DNA from: a virus
Direction: 5' to 3' (one strand)
IMG/VR virus record: IMGVR_UViG_3300047317_000335
Span: 1 to 40,212 of that record
DNA length: 40,212 nt
Both the position numbers and the translations under genes were made by a program. The notes beneath the pieces are model-generated. The model was not told where the DNA came from. It did no database searches and saw only the letters and a list, made by a program, of their open reading frames with translations. Every line of letters starts with the position of its first letter. The stretch's first letter is position 1. Shown here in pieces: positions 21,322 to 34,995 of this stretch.

Positions 21322-22017
21322 ATGGCTGTTCTCGGAGTGGACGTTTCCGGCTATCAGTCGGCAACGTTCGATACCAAGGGACTGGCTTTCGCGTTCGTCA
21401 AGGCGACCGAGGGGACCGGCTACGTAAACCCCAAGTACAAGGCCCAGGTTGCGCACGCGCGTGCCGCTGGCCTGGTGGTCGGTCACTACCATTTCGGCAA
21501 GAACGGCGGCAGCGCTGAGGCCGATTACTTCCTGGGCAAGCTTGAGTTGCACACGGGGGATATCCTCGCTTTCGACTGGGAGACCAGCGGCGTTTCGCAG
21601 AGCGAGCGCGACGCGTTCATATCGCGTGTGAAGGCCAAGGCGCCCGGTCATAAGGTGGTGCTGTATTGCAACACGGATTACTGGCACCACCGTGATAGCG
21701 ACAATGGCGGACCCATGGACGGTCTGTGGATTGCTGACCCCAACCACCCGGCGGGGAAGCCCAGCGTCCAGCACGGGTGGGTGTTCCACCAGTATTCGTG
21801 GGCCGGTGGTATTGACCGCAACGTGGCCAATTTCAAGGATGCTGCCGCGCTCCGTGCTTGGGCGACTCCGCACGCTGCCGCCAAGCCTCCGGTGCCTCCG
21901 GCGACTCACCCGGCTCCGGTTCCGGTGCACCCTGCCCCGGCTCCGGCTCCGTCCCTTGAGCAGCGCGTGAGCAAGCTTGAGGCGGACGTCAAGGCGCTTC
22001 AGGCGCGGGTGCACTAG
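21322..22017 (+). CDS. Endolysin, GH25 muramidase
   Basis: A 231-aa enzyme that cleaves the glycan strands of peptidoglycan. The GH25 markers are GVDVSGYQ at the N-terminus, FVKATEGTGYVNP near 30-42, VGHYHF near 54, LAFDWETSG near 80-88 (the catalytic-type Asp-Trp-Glu) and a final beta strand with HQYSWAGGIDRNV. A Pro/Ala-rich linker (residues about 190-215) leads to a short coiled coil, LEQRVSKLEADVKALQARVH, instead of a recognised wall-binding module. There is no signal peptide, so export relies on the holin. AAGGAG lies seven bases before ATG. Confidence 0.95.
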   Translation: MAVLGVDVSGYQSATFDTKGLAFAFVKATEGTGYVNPKYKAQVAHARAAGLVVGHYHFGKNGGSAEADYFLGKLELHTGDILAFDWETSGVSQSERDAFISRVKAKAPGHKVVLYCNTDYWHHRDSDNGGPMDGLWIADPNHPAGKPSVQHGWVFHQYSWAGGIDRNVANFKDAAALRAWATPHAAAKPPVPPATHPAPVPVHPAPAPAPSLEQRVSKLEADVKALQARVH

Positions 22018-25466: not shown

Positions 25467-25504
25467 AGCCCCGGTAGGCCTCCCTGGTCCGCCGGGGCTT
25501 TCTC
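25467..25504 (+). terminator. Rho-independent terminator
   Basis: AGCCCCGG pairs with CCGGGGCT and is followed by TTTCTC. It lies 21 bases after the 206-aa gene. Confidence 0.85.
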
Positions 25505-25532: not shown

Positions 25533-25633
25533 CAGTGGTGAACGGGTGGCCGGAGTGGTGAAGTAGAGGGTTTTTCTGTATTGCCTTTAGAAAATCCAAT
25601 AGCAATACAGAAAATGACCCCACTTCACCACTC
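25533..25633. repeat. AT-rich island with 81-nt hairpin and iteron-like repeats
   Basis: GAGTGGTGAAGT at 25553-25564 is the exact reverse complement of 25622-25633. Inside, TTTTCTGTATTGC at 25572-25584 exactly matches GCAATACAGAAAA at 25602-25614, and GGGT pairs with ACCC, leaving only a small bulge and a 17-nt loop. AGTGGTGAA also occurs as a direct copy at 25534-25542. The stretch is gene-free and much richer in A and T than its surroundings. It could be a replication origin, a regulator-binding site or a small structured RNA. Confidence 0.65.
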
Positions 25634-25641
25634 ACACAACC

Positions 25642-25661
25642 GGGAGCGTTTGTGCCCCTTA
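25642..25661 (+). repeat. Start-associated 20-bp element, copy 4
   Basis: GGGAGCGTTTGTGCCCCTTA, ending 30 bases before ATG 25692. Its GTGCCCCT is exactly complementary to AGGGGCAC at 25681-25688, which contains the ribosome-binding site of the nuclease gene. Confidence 0.8.
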
Positions 25662-25691
25662 GTCGCTGTACCTGACTGAGAGGGGCACGAA

Positions 25692-26549
25692 ATGCCCAAC
25701 GTAAAGACCATGCACAAGGGTGGGTCACGTTTCTACGTTGACCACGAAACGCGCGTGAGCGTCCCTGGTGTGACTTCCGTCATCGGCATGCTGCCTAAGC
25801 CGTTCCTACGTTTCTGGGGTCAGAAACTTGTGGCGGAGGCCGCTGTCGATTCCTTTGACTACCTTCAGCGCATGGTGGAGACGTCCGGCCGTGACGCTGT
25901 GGTGGATCACCTCAAGAACGCGCCGAACCGGTACACCAAGCTGCGTGCCAACGTTGGCAGCGAGGCGCATGATCTGTTTGAGCGCATGATCCGGGGCGAG
26001 ACCATCGGACGCGTTCACCCGGACCTTGAGCCGTACCGCCGGAACTTTGCGGAATTCCTCCGCGATGTGAATCCGGAGCTTGTGCGCGCGGAAGACATAG
26101 CGTGGAGTGACGCGCACCAGTACGCCGGTAGCTTTGACGCCATCCTCCGTGTGTGGGTCATCAAGCGGCTGGACGGCAAGCTAGTCATTGACCCTACGCG
26201 CGGACCCGACAGCGAGCCGGTGCTCTTGATTGTCGACTGGAAGACATCCAAGGCCACGTATCCGGATGTGGCGCTTCAGATGAGCGCATACGCCAACGCT
26301 GACAAGCTCATTGACCCGGAGGGCAACGAACACCCCATGCCGGAGTTTGATGGGGCGGCAGTGCTGCACATCACGCCGGATGAGTGGGAATTCAAGCCAG
26401 TGGACATCAGTGCCGCTGTCTTTGACATCTTCCTGGCGCTCCGTCAGATCTTCGATTGGGACCGGACGCTCAGCAAGGAAGTGCTGGGCCGTGCGCTGGC
26501 GCGTAGTGCGCGGAGCGTTGTGACTGGCACACAGCGACGGGGGAAGTAA
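25692..26549 (+). CDS. PD-(D/E)XK nuclease, RecB/Cas4-like
   Basis: 285 aa. The catalytic core is recognisable: SEAHDLFERM near residue 77 (a motif-I-like His), YAGSFDAIL near 145 (Asp) and LLIVDWKTSK near 178-187 (Asp-x-Lys pair), followed by ALQMSAYANA, the QxxxY helix of RecB-type nucleases. Such proteins in phages process DNA ends in replication or recombination. It is the first gene after the AT-rich hairpin and start-associated element. Confidence 0.85.
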   Translation: MPNVKTMHKGGSRFYVDHETRVSVPGVTSVIGMLPKPFLRFWGQKLVAEAAVDSFDYLQRMVETSGRDAVVDHLKNAPNRYTKLRANVGSEAHDLFERMIRGETIGRVHPDLEPYRRNFAEFLRDVNPELVRAEDIAWSDAHQYAGSFDAILRVWVIKRLDGKLVIDPTRGPDSEPVLLIVDWKTSKATYPDVALQMSAYANADKLIDPEGNEHPMPEFDGAAVLHITPDEWEFKPVDISAAVFDIFLALRQIFDWDRTLSKEVLGRALARSARSVVTGTQRRGK

Positions 26550-29866: not shown

Positions 29867-29886
29867 GGGAGCGCTTGGGACCCTAC
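29867..29886 (+). repeat. Start-associated 20-bp element, copy 6 (diverged)
   Basis: GGGAGCGCTTGGGACCCTAC, with two changes from consensus in the TGTGCCCC half. It ends 21 bases before TTG 29908. Confidence 0.65.
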
Positions 29887-29907
29887 GGAGCCGGAAGGGA
29901 GAAAACG

Positions 29908-32331
29908 TTGAAATTCCAAGAGATCCTGGCTCGGTTCCAAGACGTCAGTGAGACCAGTGACGGTTACCTCGCTGTCTGCCCGGCACACAATGACTCGCGC
30001 CCCTCGCTCCGCATTTGGTATGGGGAGGACGGACGGGTACGGCTCAAGTGCCGGGCAGGCTGCGAGACTGGCGCCGTGGTGACTGCCGCCGGTCTGCGCT
30101 GGCCGGACATGTTCGACGCTGAGGGACCGGGGCTCACCGTGGCCAAGGAACCTCCGGCGCCGGTTGCTCCGGGGCATGTGGCAGCGCTGGCGTATTTCGT
30201 CGACACGTCGTCTGCCGCGCTTTTCGACTTCATAGAGCCTATGGCGGAGACTGCCCGGAAGTACGCGGCTGGCCGGTTCGGATTGTCGGAAGACATGGTG
30301 GCGGACCTTGAGCTTGGGTTTGCTCCGGCTGGCGTGCAGTTCCGCTACGCATCCCGCGCGTTTAGCGCTTTCCCGCGCCTCACCGTGCCACTCAAGGACT
30401 TTGCCGGACGTCCGCGCGGATTGCAGGGGCGGGACTTGTCCGGTAACTGTCCGGGCCGGTGGGTGTCGCTGTCCAACCCTGAGGGCCACCGGTGGGCCAC
30501 GTACGGCGTTTTCAGGGGGCAGGGTGGCTATGGGGTCACCATCGTGTCTGAAGGGCCCGGAGATGGGCTCACAGTGGCTGCCGTTGGCTATGACGCTGTC
30601 TCCATCCGTGGCGCTGCGCTGGCCGGTAACCCGGATCTACTCCGTGAGCTTGCCGAGGGGCTCAAGGGCAGTCAGGTAATCGCCGCTGGCGACGACGACG
30701 ACGCTGGGCGACAGTTCAACCGGCGTCTTGCCGACGGACTGAAGGCGTACGGAATCACTGTCTACGCGCTGCCCCTTGGCGGGCCGGATATCACAGCGTG
30801 GCGTGAGTCTGCGGCTGACGAATTCGCCCCCGCACTGCACACTGCCGTTAAGTCGGCGCGACCGGTAGCCAGCGCACATGAGGCCGTGGCCGAGCAAGCT
30901 ACACAGAGCCTCGCTGAGCGCACCGGTGCTGACTTTGTCAGCCGTGACCAGGGCGTTGAAGCGGCGCGCATGTTGGGCGAACTCACCAAGCAGTACGGCG
31001 AGTCGCACGCGATAAGCGCCTACGCGCTGGTGGCTTGGACTGACGGCCGTATCAAGCACGCGCCGGAGCTTGGTTTCATGGTGTGGAACGGGCAGGTGTG
31101 GGAACGCAGCGCCACCAAGGTCCGCCAAGAGATTCACCGCATGGGCGCCGCGCTGGCGCTGGCTGGCGAGACTGTGGCCGCTAAGCAATTCCTGAACACC
31201 ACGGGCATTGACTCGATCCTCACGGAACTTAAGAGCGTGCCGAGCGTTCACGTGGCTGCGCATGCGTTTGATGCTGCCACGCATCTGCTCAACTTCCGCA
31301 ACGGCACGGTAGATCTGCGCACGGGGAGCATGCGACGCCACAATCCGGCGGACATGCTCACGTACGCGCTAGATGTCGACTACCGGCCGGAGGCGACTGC
31401 ACCGCGCTGGGAAAGGTTCCTGGGGGAGATCTTCCCCGATAACCCGGAGCTACCGGCGTACATGCGTCGCATGGTCGGTTACGGCATTACCGGTGACGTC
31501 AGTGAGCAGGCTTTCGCTGTGCTGTGGGGCAAGGGTGCCAACGGCAAGAGCGTGTTTACCGACACGCTGACTTCTGTGTTCCGCACCATCACGCGCACCA
31601 CGGGTTTCGCCACGTTCGAGGAAAAGCAGAATGGCGGAATTCCCAACGACATTGCCGCGTTGCGCGGGTCCCGCCTGGTTATGGCCAGCGAGGGTGAAGC
31701 GGGCAAGCCCATGAGCGAGGCGACGCTCAAGCGCGCGACCGGCAAGGAAATGATGCAAGCGCGTTTCCTCCGCAAAGAATTCTTTGAATTCAAACCCCAA
31801 TTCCTCATCATGCTGGCGACCAACCACAAGCCCCGGTTTAAGGGGCAGGATGAGGGGCTGTGGCGACGCGTCAAGCTCATCCCGTTCAGCCGCTGGTTTG
31901 CCCCGCATGAGCGTGACTATGAGCTTGACCGGAAGCTACTGGCGGAGGCGGAGGGCATTGCCGCTTGGGCCGTTCGGGGCGCCGTCGAGTGGTACGCGCG
32001 TGGCCTTGGTGAGCCTGACTCCATCACAGCGGCTACGCGTGAGTACCGGGAGACGTCTGACGCGCTGGCCGGTTTCTTCCCTGGTGTGCTGCTGGCTGAC
32101 GCGCGTGAGCAGATGAACGGCTCTGATGTGTTCGCCGCGTATCTCGATTGGTGCGAGGCGGAGAATCTGCCAGCCAAGGAACGCTGGACCCGGCGAGGGT
32201 TTTACAGCGCCATGGAAGAGCGAGGCGTTTACAAGAAACCCACCAACAAGGGTGTTGCGCTGGTGGGTGTCCGGCTGGCGGATGCTGCTCCGGCATTCGA
32301 TGGCCCCGGAATCTTCGGAGGCGGCAAGTGA
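29908..32331 (+). CDS. Primase-helicase fusion, D5 type
   Basis: An 807-aa replication protein. A zinc-binding primase start is seen in CPAHNDSRPSL and LKCRAGCETG (residues about 24-55). Toprim-like motifs are TIVSEGPGDGLTVAAVGYDA near 212 and VIAAGDDDDAGRQF near 256. A D5-N/DUF5906-type region follows, with FRNGTVDLRTG near 467. The helicase P-loop is LWGKGANGKSVFTDTL near 540-552, RLVMASEGEAG serves as Walker B near 588, and FLIMLATNHKPRF as sensor near 632. TTG 29908 is chosen because GGAAGGGAG precedes it. It makes primers and unwinds DNA for the polymerase gene that follows. Confidence 0.9.
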   Translation: MKFQEILARFQDVSETSDGYLAVCPAHNDSRPSLRIWYGEDGRVRLKCRAGCETGAVVTAAGLRWPDMFDAEGPGLTVAKEPPAPVAPGHVAALAYFVDTSSAALFDFIEPMAETARKYAAGRFGLSEDMVADLELGFAPAGVQFRYASRAFSAFPRLTVPLKDFAGRPRGLQGRDLSGNCPGRWVSLSNPEGHRWATYGVFRGQGGYGVTIVSEGPGDGLTVAAVGYDAVSIRGAALAGNPDLLRELAEGLKGSQVIAAGDDDDAGRQFNRRLADGLKAYGITVYALPLGGPDITAWRESAADEFAPALHTAVKSARPVASAHEAVAEQATQSLAERTGADFVSRDQGVEAARMLGELTKQYGESHAISAYALVAWTDGRIKHAPELGFMVWNGQVWERSATKVRQEIHRMGAALALAGETVAAKQFLNTTGIDSILTELKSVPSVHVAAHAFDAATHLLNFRNGTVDLRTGSMRRHNPADMLTYALDVDYRPEATAPRWERFLGEIFPDNPELPAYMRRMVGYGITGDVSEQAFAVLWGKGANGKSVFTDTLTSVFRTITRTTGFATFEEKQNGGIPNDIAALRGSRLVMASEGEAGKPMSEATLKRATGKEMMQARFLRKEFFEFKPQFLIMLATNHKPRFKGQDEGLWRRVKLIPFSRWFAPHERDYELDRKLLAEAEGIAAWAVRGAVEWYARGLGEPDSITAATREYRETSDALAGFFPGVLLADAREQMNGSDVFAAYLDWCEAENLPAKERWTRRGFYSAMEERGVYKKPTNKGVALVGVRLADAAPAFDGPGIFGGGK

Positions 32332-34623: not shown

Positions 34624-34624
34624 G

Positions 34625-34646
34625 CAGCGTGCGAATTCGCACAGTG
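34625..34646. repeat. 22-bp palindrome, copy 10
   Basis: CAGCGTGCGAATTC followed by GCACAGTG, one base after the HNH stop. It opens the 380-base gene-free region before the sigma-like gene. Confidence 0.9.
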
Positions 34647-34975
34647 CCGTTGCCAAGTCTTTATTCTGACGCCGTGTCGCACGTGCAAACCCGCTGTACC
34701 GAAGGTAACCAGGTCCCGTGGCATATGCCGTTCCGTGGATCTGAAGGCGGGAACCCCGTTCGCACCTTAGATGGTCCGTCAGTTAGCGCCTACGACCGTA
34801 GTTAGTAGCCATCTTCACAGCTTCCATACATGCCGTTACACGCCTACGTTCACACCACAACGAACGGCGGCAGCAAAGGCCACGCCCCGCCGGGAGTCGC
34901 AACCTCCCTGGTGGGGCTTTGTCTTGCCCCGAACTCAACTGTGACCCGCTTCACAGTCGTGGCTTGCCCCTTTCA
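34647..34975. promoter_or_regulatory. Gene-free region upstream of sigma-like gene
   Basis: No gene is convincing here. It holds the palindrome GGCATATGCC near 34724, the terminator at 34884-34920, and ACTGTGA-CCCGCT-TCACAGT at 34938-34957, a 7-bp-arm dyad that looks like an operator. CTTGCCCC occurs twice (34923-34930 and 34963-34970). TATTCT at 34662, near palindrome 10, could be a -10 box but has no matching -35. The region seems to be a control region for the sigma-like gene. Confidence 0.45.
34884..34920 (+). terminator. Rho-independent terminator
   Basis: GCCCC and GGGGC enclose GGGAG paired with CTCCC, followed by TTTGTCTT. It lies upstream of the sigma-like gene and ends any transcript from the polymerase unit. 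Confidence 0.8.
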
Positions 34976-34995
34976 GGGAGCGCTTGTGCCCCTAG
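34976..34995 (+). repeat. Start-associated 20-bp element, copy 8
   Basis: GGGAGCGCTTGTGCCCCTAG, ending 32 bases before ATG 35028. GTGCC can pair with GGCAC just beyond it. Confidence 0.8.

Follow-up and report, generated by a model that had tools for sequence, protein, structure and literature searches.

A mirrored-iteron element upstream of gene 1 in phiC31-like phages: a candidate replication origin and its predicted recognition by the phage primase-helicase

In a phiC31-like Streptomyces phage represented by IMG/VR record IMGVR_UViG_3300047317_000335 (the window, i.e., the whole stretch of 40,212 nt analyzed here), a noncoding segment with nested inverted repeats and a marked dip in GC content raises the question of whether it is a site where replication begins, a DNA site serving some other protein, or a structured RNA. 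We consider it highly probable that the element is a replication origin bound by the phage's own primase-helicase; binding, melting, double-hexamer loading, and origin activity are all inferred. The element lies in the gene order terminator, element, gp1 (coding for a Cas4/RecB-like exonuclease), a gp3-like recombination directionality factor (RDF), HNH, primase-helicase, polymerase A, and sigma factor (Table 1). Our literature search found no mapped origin for the phiC31 family, which is weak evidence of novelty, as subscription papers were not covered.

The description of this segment in an earlier note, made without database searches, largely survives measurement. The 81-nt hairpin that it reported is a dyad at 25553-25633, and the two nested perfect arms of 12 and 13 bp are formed by outer arms GAGTGGTGAAGT (25553-25564) and ACTTCACCACTC (25622-25633), paired at 12 of 12 positions, and by inner arms TTTTCTGTATTGC (25572-25584) and GCAATACAGAAAA (25602-25614), paired at 13 of 13. 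The extra direct copy is the third exact AGTGGTGAA, at 25534; the other two begin at 25554 and, on the minus strand, at 25624, and the whole window holds no more. The noted drop in GC corresponds to a core of 28% GC, versus 62% for the window, which is its lowest-GC 47-mer, and the nuclease gene said to follow the site is indeed gp1, the first gene past the element. The span given, 25533-25690, holds for the part containing the dyad and fails at its right end (25642-25690), which belongs to a different feature, the GGGAGCGTTTGTGCCCC motif.

Table 1. Coordinates of the element, its subunits, and associated features in the window
Feature	Position	Strand	Basis or remark
Intrinsic-terminator-like hairpin that closes the transcription unit on the repressor side, upstream; marks where the element is bounded on the left	25468..25501	+	Terminator scan
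Extra outlying iteron GTGGTGAA	25535..25542	+	Repeat search
Left-arm iteron GTGGTGAA	25555..25562	+	Repeat search; 8-bp periodicity in 30 relatives
Left-arm second unit GTAGAGGG, 8 bp, degenerate	25563..25570	+	Sequence; clearer in relatives
AT-rich core, putative melting region, containing the inner 13-bp dyad	25571..25617	.	28% GC
Right-arm second unit GTGGGGTC, 8 bp, degenerate	25616..25623	-	Sequence; overlaps the last two core bases
Right-arm iteron GTGGTGAA, mirroring the left one	25624..25631	-	Repeat search
Leader/promoter-like motif GGGAGCGTTTGTGCCCC, outside the dyad	25642..25658	+	8 copies genome-wide
gp1, Cas4/RecB-like exonuclease	25692..26549	+	First gene past the element in the window phage and close relatives
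Toprim primase with D5_N/DUF5906 helicase, proposed initiator	29875..32331	+	Domain search
Winged-helix domain, primase residues ~725-805	32047..32289	+	Structure model
Primase residue 789 (P), wing	codon 32239-32241	+	
Primase residue 794 (V), wing	codon 32254-32256	+	

Among inverted repeats with arms no more than 300 bp apart, the element is the longest in the window (39-nt arms, 79%). The outer arms by themselves are not above chance dyads elsewhere in the window; what matters is the combination of features and the conservation of the element rather than the outer arms singly. The core contains two CTATAG-like motifs (CTTTAG at 25585 and CAATAG at 25597), and this inner pair, sought as a genome-wide motif, is not above chance elsewhere in the window. 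No sigma-70 promoter was found inside the dyad.

Our survey of the sequence in front of gp1 began with 26 relatives from IMG/VR plus 10 reference phages and went on to 117 loci with both gp1 and primase. These loci came from phage records, viral contigs, and genomes of bacteria, and some of their contigs overlap the first set. A counterpart is located directly upstream of gene 1 in nearly all close relatives examined, including phiC31 (21666-21759 of AJ006589.3), phiBT1, and TG1, and the element is also present in Curtobacterium phage SpecialK, Microbacterium phage IAmGroot, and Arthrobacter phages KeAlii, DrSierra, and Emotion. As the window phage and phiC31 are separated by a large distance at the DNA level, this conservation is informative; absence in close relatives, which the earlier note would have taken as refutation, is not what we see in those examined. 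The observed conservation concerns the layout and not the hairpin sequence: tandem 8-bp iterons are mirrored around an AT-richer core of 47 to 65 bp, so that a typical locus reads, gene order permitting, as a terminator, an outer arm of two to three tandem 8-bp units, the core, and the mirrored arm. In fixed windows of 30 hand-checked phages, identity at a lag of 8 within the arms is 0.389 versus 0.274 ± 0.010 (z of 11), and no other lag from 4 to 15 exceeds a z of 4; each left arm resembles its own right arm (12.0) far more than those of other phages (7.5), a difference reached in 0 of 5,000 permutations. The dyad lies above the 95th percentile of shuffles in 74% of the 117 automatically scanned loci, and the remaining quarter or so is partly explained by the scan locking on terminators or by uncertain gp1 starts, some of which were placed automatically. 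The inner perfect 13-bp dyad is a speciality of the window, and we rejected it as a conserved signal since it lies above the 95th percentile of shuffles in only 31% of relatives.

The spelling of the iteron varies considerably. Most phages have GTGACGAA, and others have GTGTAGAA, GTGCAGA, GTGATGAA, GTGTCGA, CTGACGAA, or GGACGTTC, and the window group has GTGGTGAA; given as 6-mers, the spellings include GTGACG, GTGTAG, and GTGCAG, versus GTGGTG in the window. The element is not universal, because Microbacterium phages Doobus and Franklin22, despite an annotated primase/helicase, have no dyad in front of gp1, and Streptomyces phage phiSASD1 has no recognizable copy and no clear iterons. A dyad search of 16.8-kb stretches of Doobus and Franklin22 (L242 and L244) likewise returned nothing convincing, and in both phiSASD1 and Attoomi dyads are present without clear 8-bp iterons. 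A 58.9-kb viral contig (L073) shows a hairpin with 29-bp arms at the same place upstream of gp1; no D5 primase was detected in the stretch examined, and its origin system may differ.

Could the element act as RNA, i.e., as a small RNA, an attenuator, or a terminator without a poly-U tail? The hairpin predicted in the window is strong (z of -7.1 on the plus and -9.4 on the minus strand, with 0 of 200 shuffles equally stable), and early terminators lacking poly-U tails are known from phiC31. However, a transcribed structure should favor G-U among its arm mismatches on the transcribed strand, and wobble-type mismatches split 30 to 35 between the strands, with 66 of 131 mismatches being transversions. 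Folding is near random (z near 0 to -1) in several relatives that keep the element (L061, L070, L071, and L042), Rfam yielded no match for it, and neither the tandem 8-bp repeats nor their covariation with a DNA-binding domain (see below) would be explained. A protein-binding DNA site fits better than RNA, because the mismatches have no strand bias and folding is weak in some relatives. We accordingly rejected a small RNA or attenuator, the third possibility raised in the earlier note, and a known structured RNA, for which neither an Rfam match nor wobble changes on one strand were found, and hold the RNA explanation as a whole to be scarcely credible. An intrinsic terminator, with a GC-rich stem followed by a T run, was rejected as well: in a terminator scan, the sole hairpin called was the upstream one (25482-25497), which has sequence matches in phiC31, TG1, and Rowa.

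We compared the similarity of arms between phages with protein distances and computed partial correlations after removing the gp1 and polymerase distance. In a first set of 28 phages, with arms delimited by hand, the arms track primase residues 701-805 (partial r of 0.45, p of 0.0002), with weaker signals in residues 521-700 (0.25) and 1-160 (0.20) and values between -0.10 and 0.11 for gp1, polymerase, and the RDF. The held-out set comprised 56 phages and prophages, with arms found automatically and sequences dereplicated at 95%; ten loci where the scan had settled on terminators or noniteron dyads were taken out by eye before testing. Here, residues 701-805 again stand out (partial r of 0.29, p of 0.0005), with other primase parts at or below 0.09, the polymerase at 0.08, and a weak signal for gp1 (0.16). 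Phages phiSASD1 and Attoomi, with unclear iterons, and contig L073, with no primase match, were left out of these tests. Iteron spelling thus tracks the C-terminal winged helix of the primase much better than it does other primase domains, the exonuclease, or the polymerase; the two possibilities that the earlier note listed separately, an origin and an initiator-binding site, are both supported and merge into one, as mirrored iterons around an AT-rich core that covary with the primase C terminus, a domain of the origin-binding type.

The same comparison bears on whether the element could serve the immunity repressor or another transcription factor as an operator, as its palindromic form and its location, with the repressor region on one side and the early operon on the other, might suggest. 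In the first set, the arms track neither the RDF nor the sigma factor but the primase C terminus. Moreover, operators of the repressor type are other palindromes: the window has 13 copies of a palindrome near TGTGTGAATTCACACA, versus 0.1 expected (3306, 5146, 8817, 10322, 17832, 22710, 23353, 27155, 32440, 34628, 37704, 38235, and 39073), which are probably the immunity-repressor operators of this phage, and the right part of phiC31 has 10 copies of CCTACTCACGTGAGTAGG. None of the former lies at 25533-25690, and the phiC31 operators are likewise absent from the phiC31 element. The conserved inverted repeats of phiC31 that serve as repressor operators are thus similar to the element in being palindromic and intergenic in the same phage family but differ in sequence and in their many copies per genome. 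We rejected a repressor operator on the ground that these families are different multicopy palindromes, and an operator of any kind appears very improbable. Related phages diverge in operator type, with CCTACTCACGTGAGTAGG-like sequences in phiC31 and phiBT1 and CCACCTCACGTGAGGTGG-like sequences in Nesbitt.

Returning to the primase-helicase as the proposed reader of the iterons, we scanned all 611 variable primase columns for mutual information with the central dinucleotide of the iteron. Residue 794 ranked first and residue 789 second, following iteron bases 5 and 4, respectively (residue numbers are counted from the open reading frame start at 29875, although translation may in fact begin some codons further on). 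Across 84 related viruses, iteron spelling changes in step with these two amino acids: A at base 4 is accompanied by K789 in 50 of 58 cases, versus 1 of 25 otherwise (Fisher test, 5e-13), and A at base 5 by M or N at 794 in 15 of 16, versus 2 of 67 otherwise (2e-13), although neither test takes kinship into account. On a tree of primase residues 1-700 only, the base-4 trait has a minimum of 13 changes and the base-5 trait a minimum of 9, and the mean tally of independent pairs concordant in direction is 4.8 to 0.3 and 5.6 to 0, respectively; the sign test on such pairs gives ~0.06 and 0.03, being limited by the few supported pairs. The tree was a quick one that carried a long-branch warning, and the assignment of spelling types relied on matching a simple pattern within the arms. 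The window combines a GTG-GT-GAA iteron with P789 and V794, and the five phages that spell the iteron this way each have a small uncharged residue at position 789. One of them is L069; its sister L064 differs in its iterons and has R789. A natural swap is seen between L070 and L195, whose primases share 84 to 98% identity in each 50-residue block up to residue 700 but only 64% across 751-800, and whose iterons are GTGTAG in one and CTGACGAA in the other. The coupling of bases 4 and 5 to residues 789 and 794 is what was observed; that it amounts to a two-position code is a reading toward which we lean with some reserve. Residue 789 of the wing would read base 4, K going with A, R with T or C, and a small residue with G, and wing residue 794 would read base 5, I or V going with C or T and M or N with A; the wing and iterons would be swapped together by recombination. 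If true, such a code sets origin specificity in a large group of actinobacterial phages, and their replicon-specificity types become predictable from sequence. Specific binding of the iterons by the C-terminal domain has only the indirect support of this covariation, as there are no binding data.

An AlphaFold2 model of the C-terminal region of the primase is a winged helix (pLDDT of ~80 for the domain core) in which residues 789 and 794 fall in the β-hairpin forming the wing, with model strands 148-152 and 155-163 corresponding to primase residues 786-790 and 793-801. Structural comparison placed RFX DNA-binding domains at the top (Z of 8.4 to 8.8), followed by the origin-binding domain of phage P4 (1KA8; Z of 7.6 to 7.7, root mean square deviation of 2.4 to 2.5 over 75 residues, 19% identity) and the C terminus of the African swine fever virus PrimPol (Z of 7.4 to 7.7), with unrelated winged helices at 5.7 and less. 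The domain is thus predicted to share the fold of 1KA8, although by itself a Z of 7.7 may indicate no more than a common fold. The wing of RFX1 contacts the major groove, and the coupled residues also lie in the wing; however, RFX proteins are eukaryotic transcription factors, and a shared fold shows no shared function. The best sequence match of the window primase in the PDB is 7ola (E of 2e-8), listed only as a DNA primase, which we take to be the SaPI5 primase-helicase.

Judged against known replicons, the protein has what is expected of an initiator of this type, namely, Toprim, D5_N, and DUF5906 domains with a C-terminal winged helix matching 1KA8, and the DNA has the layout of an iteron origin, with 8-bp periodicity, mirrored arms, and an AT-rich core. 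The P4 alpha protein similarly unites primase, helicase, and C-terminal winged helix in one polypeptide that targets short iterons. P4 has separate ori and crr regions, whereas the window has one compact mirrored site with 8-bp tandem spacing before an exonuclease gene. Origins of phage-inducible chromosomal islands (PICIs) are likewise built of two sets of iterons with an AT-rich region between them (PMC6092414), and in SaPI Rep (Pri-Rep), a D5/SF3-type helicase, the C-terminal domain reads the iterons (PMC7581432). The SaPI primases differ in being of the AEP type, that of the window being Toprim.

Because the layout equals that of PICI origins and the recognition scheme that of SaPI Rep, we propose that the C-terminal winged helix of the primase-helicase would bind the 8-bp iterons (GTGGTGAA in the window phage) that stand in mirrored sets on the two sides of the AT-rich core, with copies of the protein assembling in opposite orientations on the two arms. 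The core might then melt, allowing a D5-type helicase to load on each strand and the two helicases to diverge, with the Toprim domain priming and phage polymerase A extending. Findings that count against an origin include the degeneracy of the second 8-bp unit in both arms of the window element and the distance of ~4.2 kb by which the site precedes the initiator gene; in SaPIs, the origin is instead directly downstream of rep, and the element fails this SaPI criterion. GC skew, sought as a sign of an origin, is mostly positive along the window and does not switch at the element.

An auxiliary or regulatory site of the primase-helicase, with the origin elsewhere, might take the form of a second cis region as in P4, where one is needed besides ori, or of a switch by which the bound initiator represses the early operon. 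The position just upstream of the early-operon leader motif is compatible with an effect on transcription, but the window has no second GTGGTGAA cluster, all three exact AGTGGTGAA copies being at the element, and two iteron sets around a core that is the least GC-rich stretch of its length in the genome are the layout of origins. Such a site is unlikely, though it cannot be excluded.

A widely used serine integrase comes from phiC31 and its relatives, as do many Streptomyces vectors. If the origin reading is right, it names an initiator and a candidate origin of ~100 bp in nearly all close relatives examined, provides a natural data set in which an origin and the DNA-reading residues of its initiator change together, and would supply natural variants for a direct test of how D5-type primase-helicases recognize origins.

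Several neighboring features merit description in their own right. The 17-bp motif GGGAGCGTTTGTGCCCC occurs in 8 copies (2326, 17857, 22687, 25642, 26704, 29867, 32466, and 34976) where 0.3 would be expected. Several copies lie some tens of bases 5' of genes, and the motif is likely a phage-specific promoter or translational leader; in phiC31, BT1, and TG1, a counterpart, GGTTGCCGACT / CCGACTCCC, is repeated instead. A hairpin at 25651-25690 adjoins the gp1 start and possibly hides the gp1 ribosome-binding site; a similar stem with a TGTAAGCA-like loop is found in many relatives. At 2605-2676, adjoining a tRNA-Phe gene, is a tRNA-like gene with an unusual anticodon loop and no ARAGORN assignment. 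A noncoding gap of a few hundred base pairs (34624-34991), which holds an operator, separates the polymerase-side genes from the sigma-factor gene and is conserved among relatives, measuring ~480 bp in phiC31. Finally, across the primase family the C-terminal end of the protein (32290-32328 in the window) bears, beyond a variable linker, a conserved GPGIF tail reminiscent of the short tails that recruit other replication proteins.
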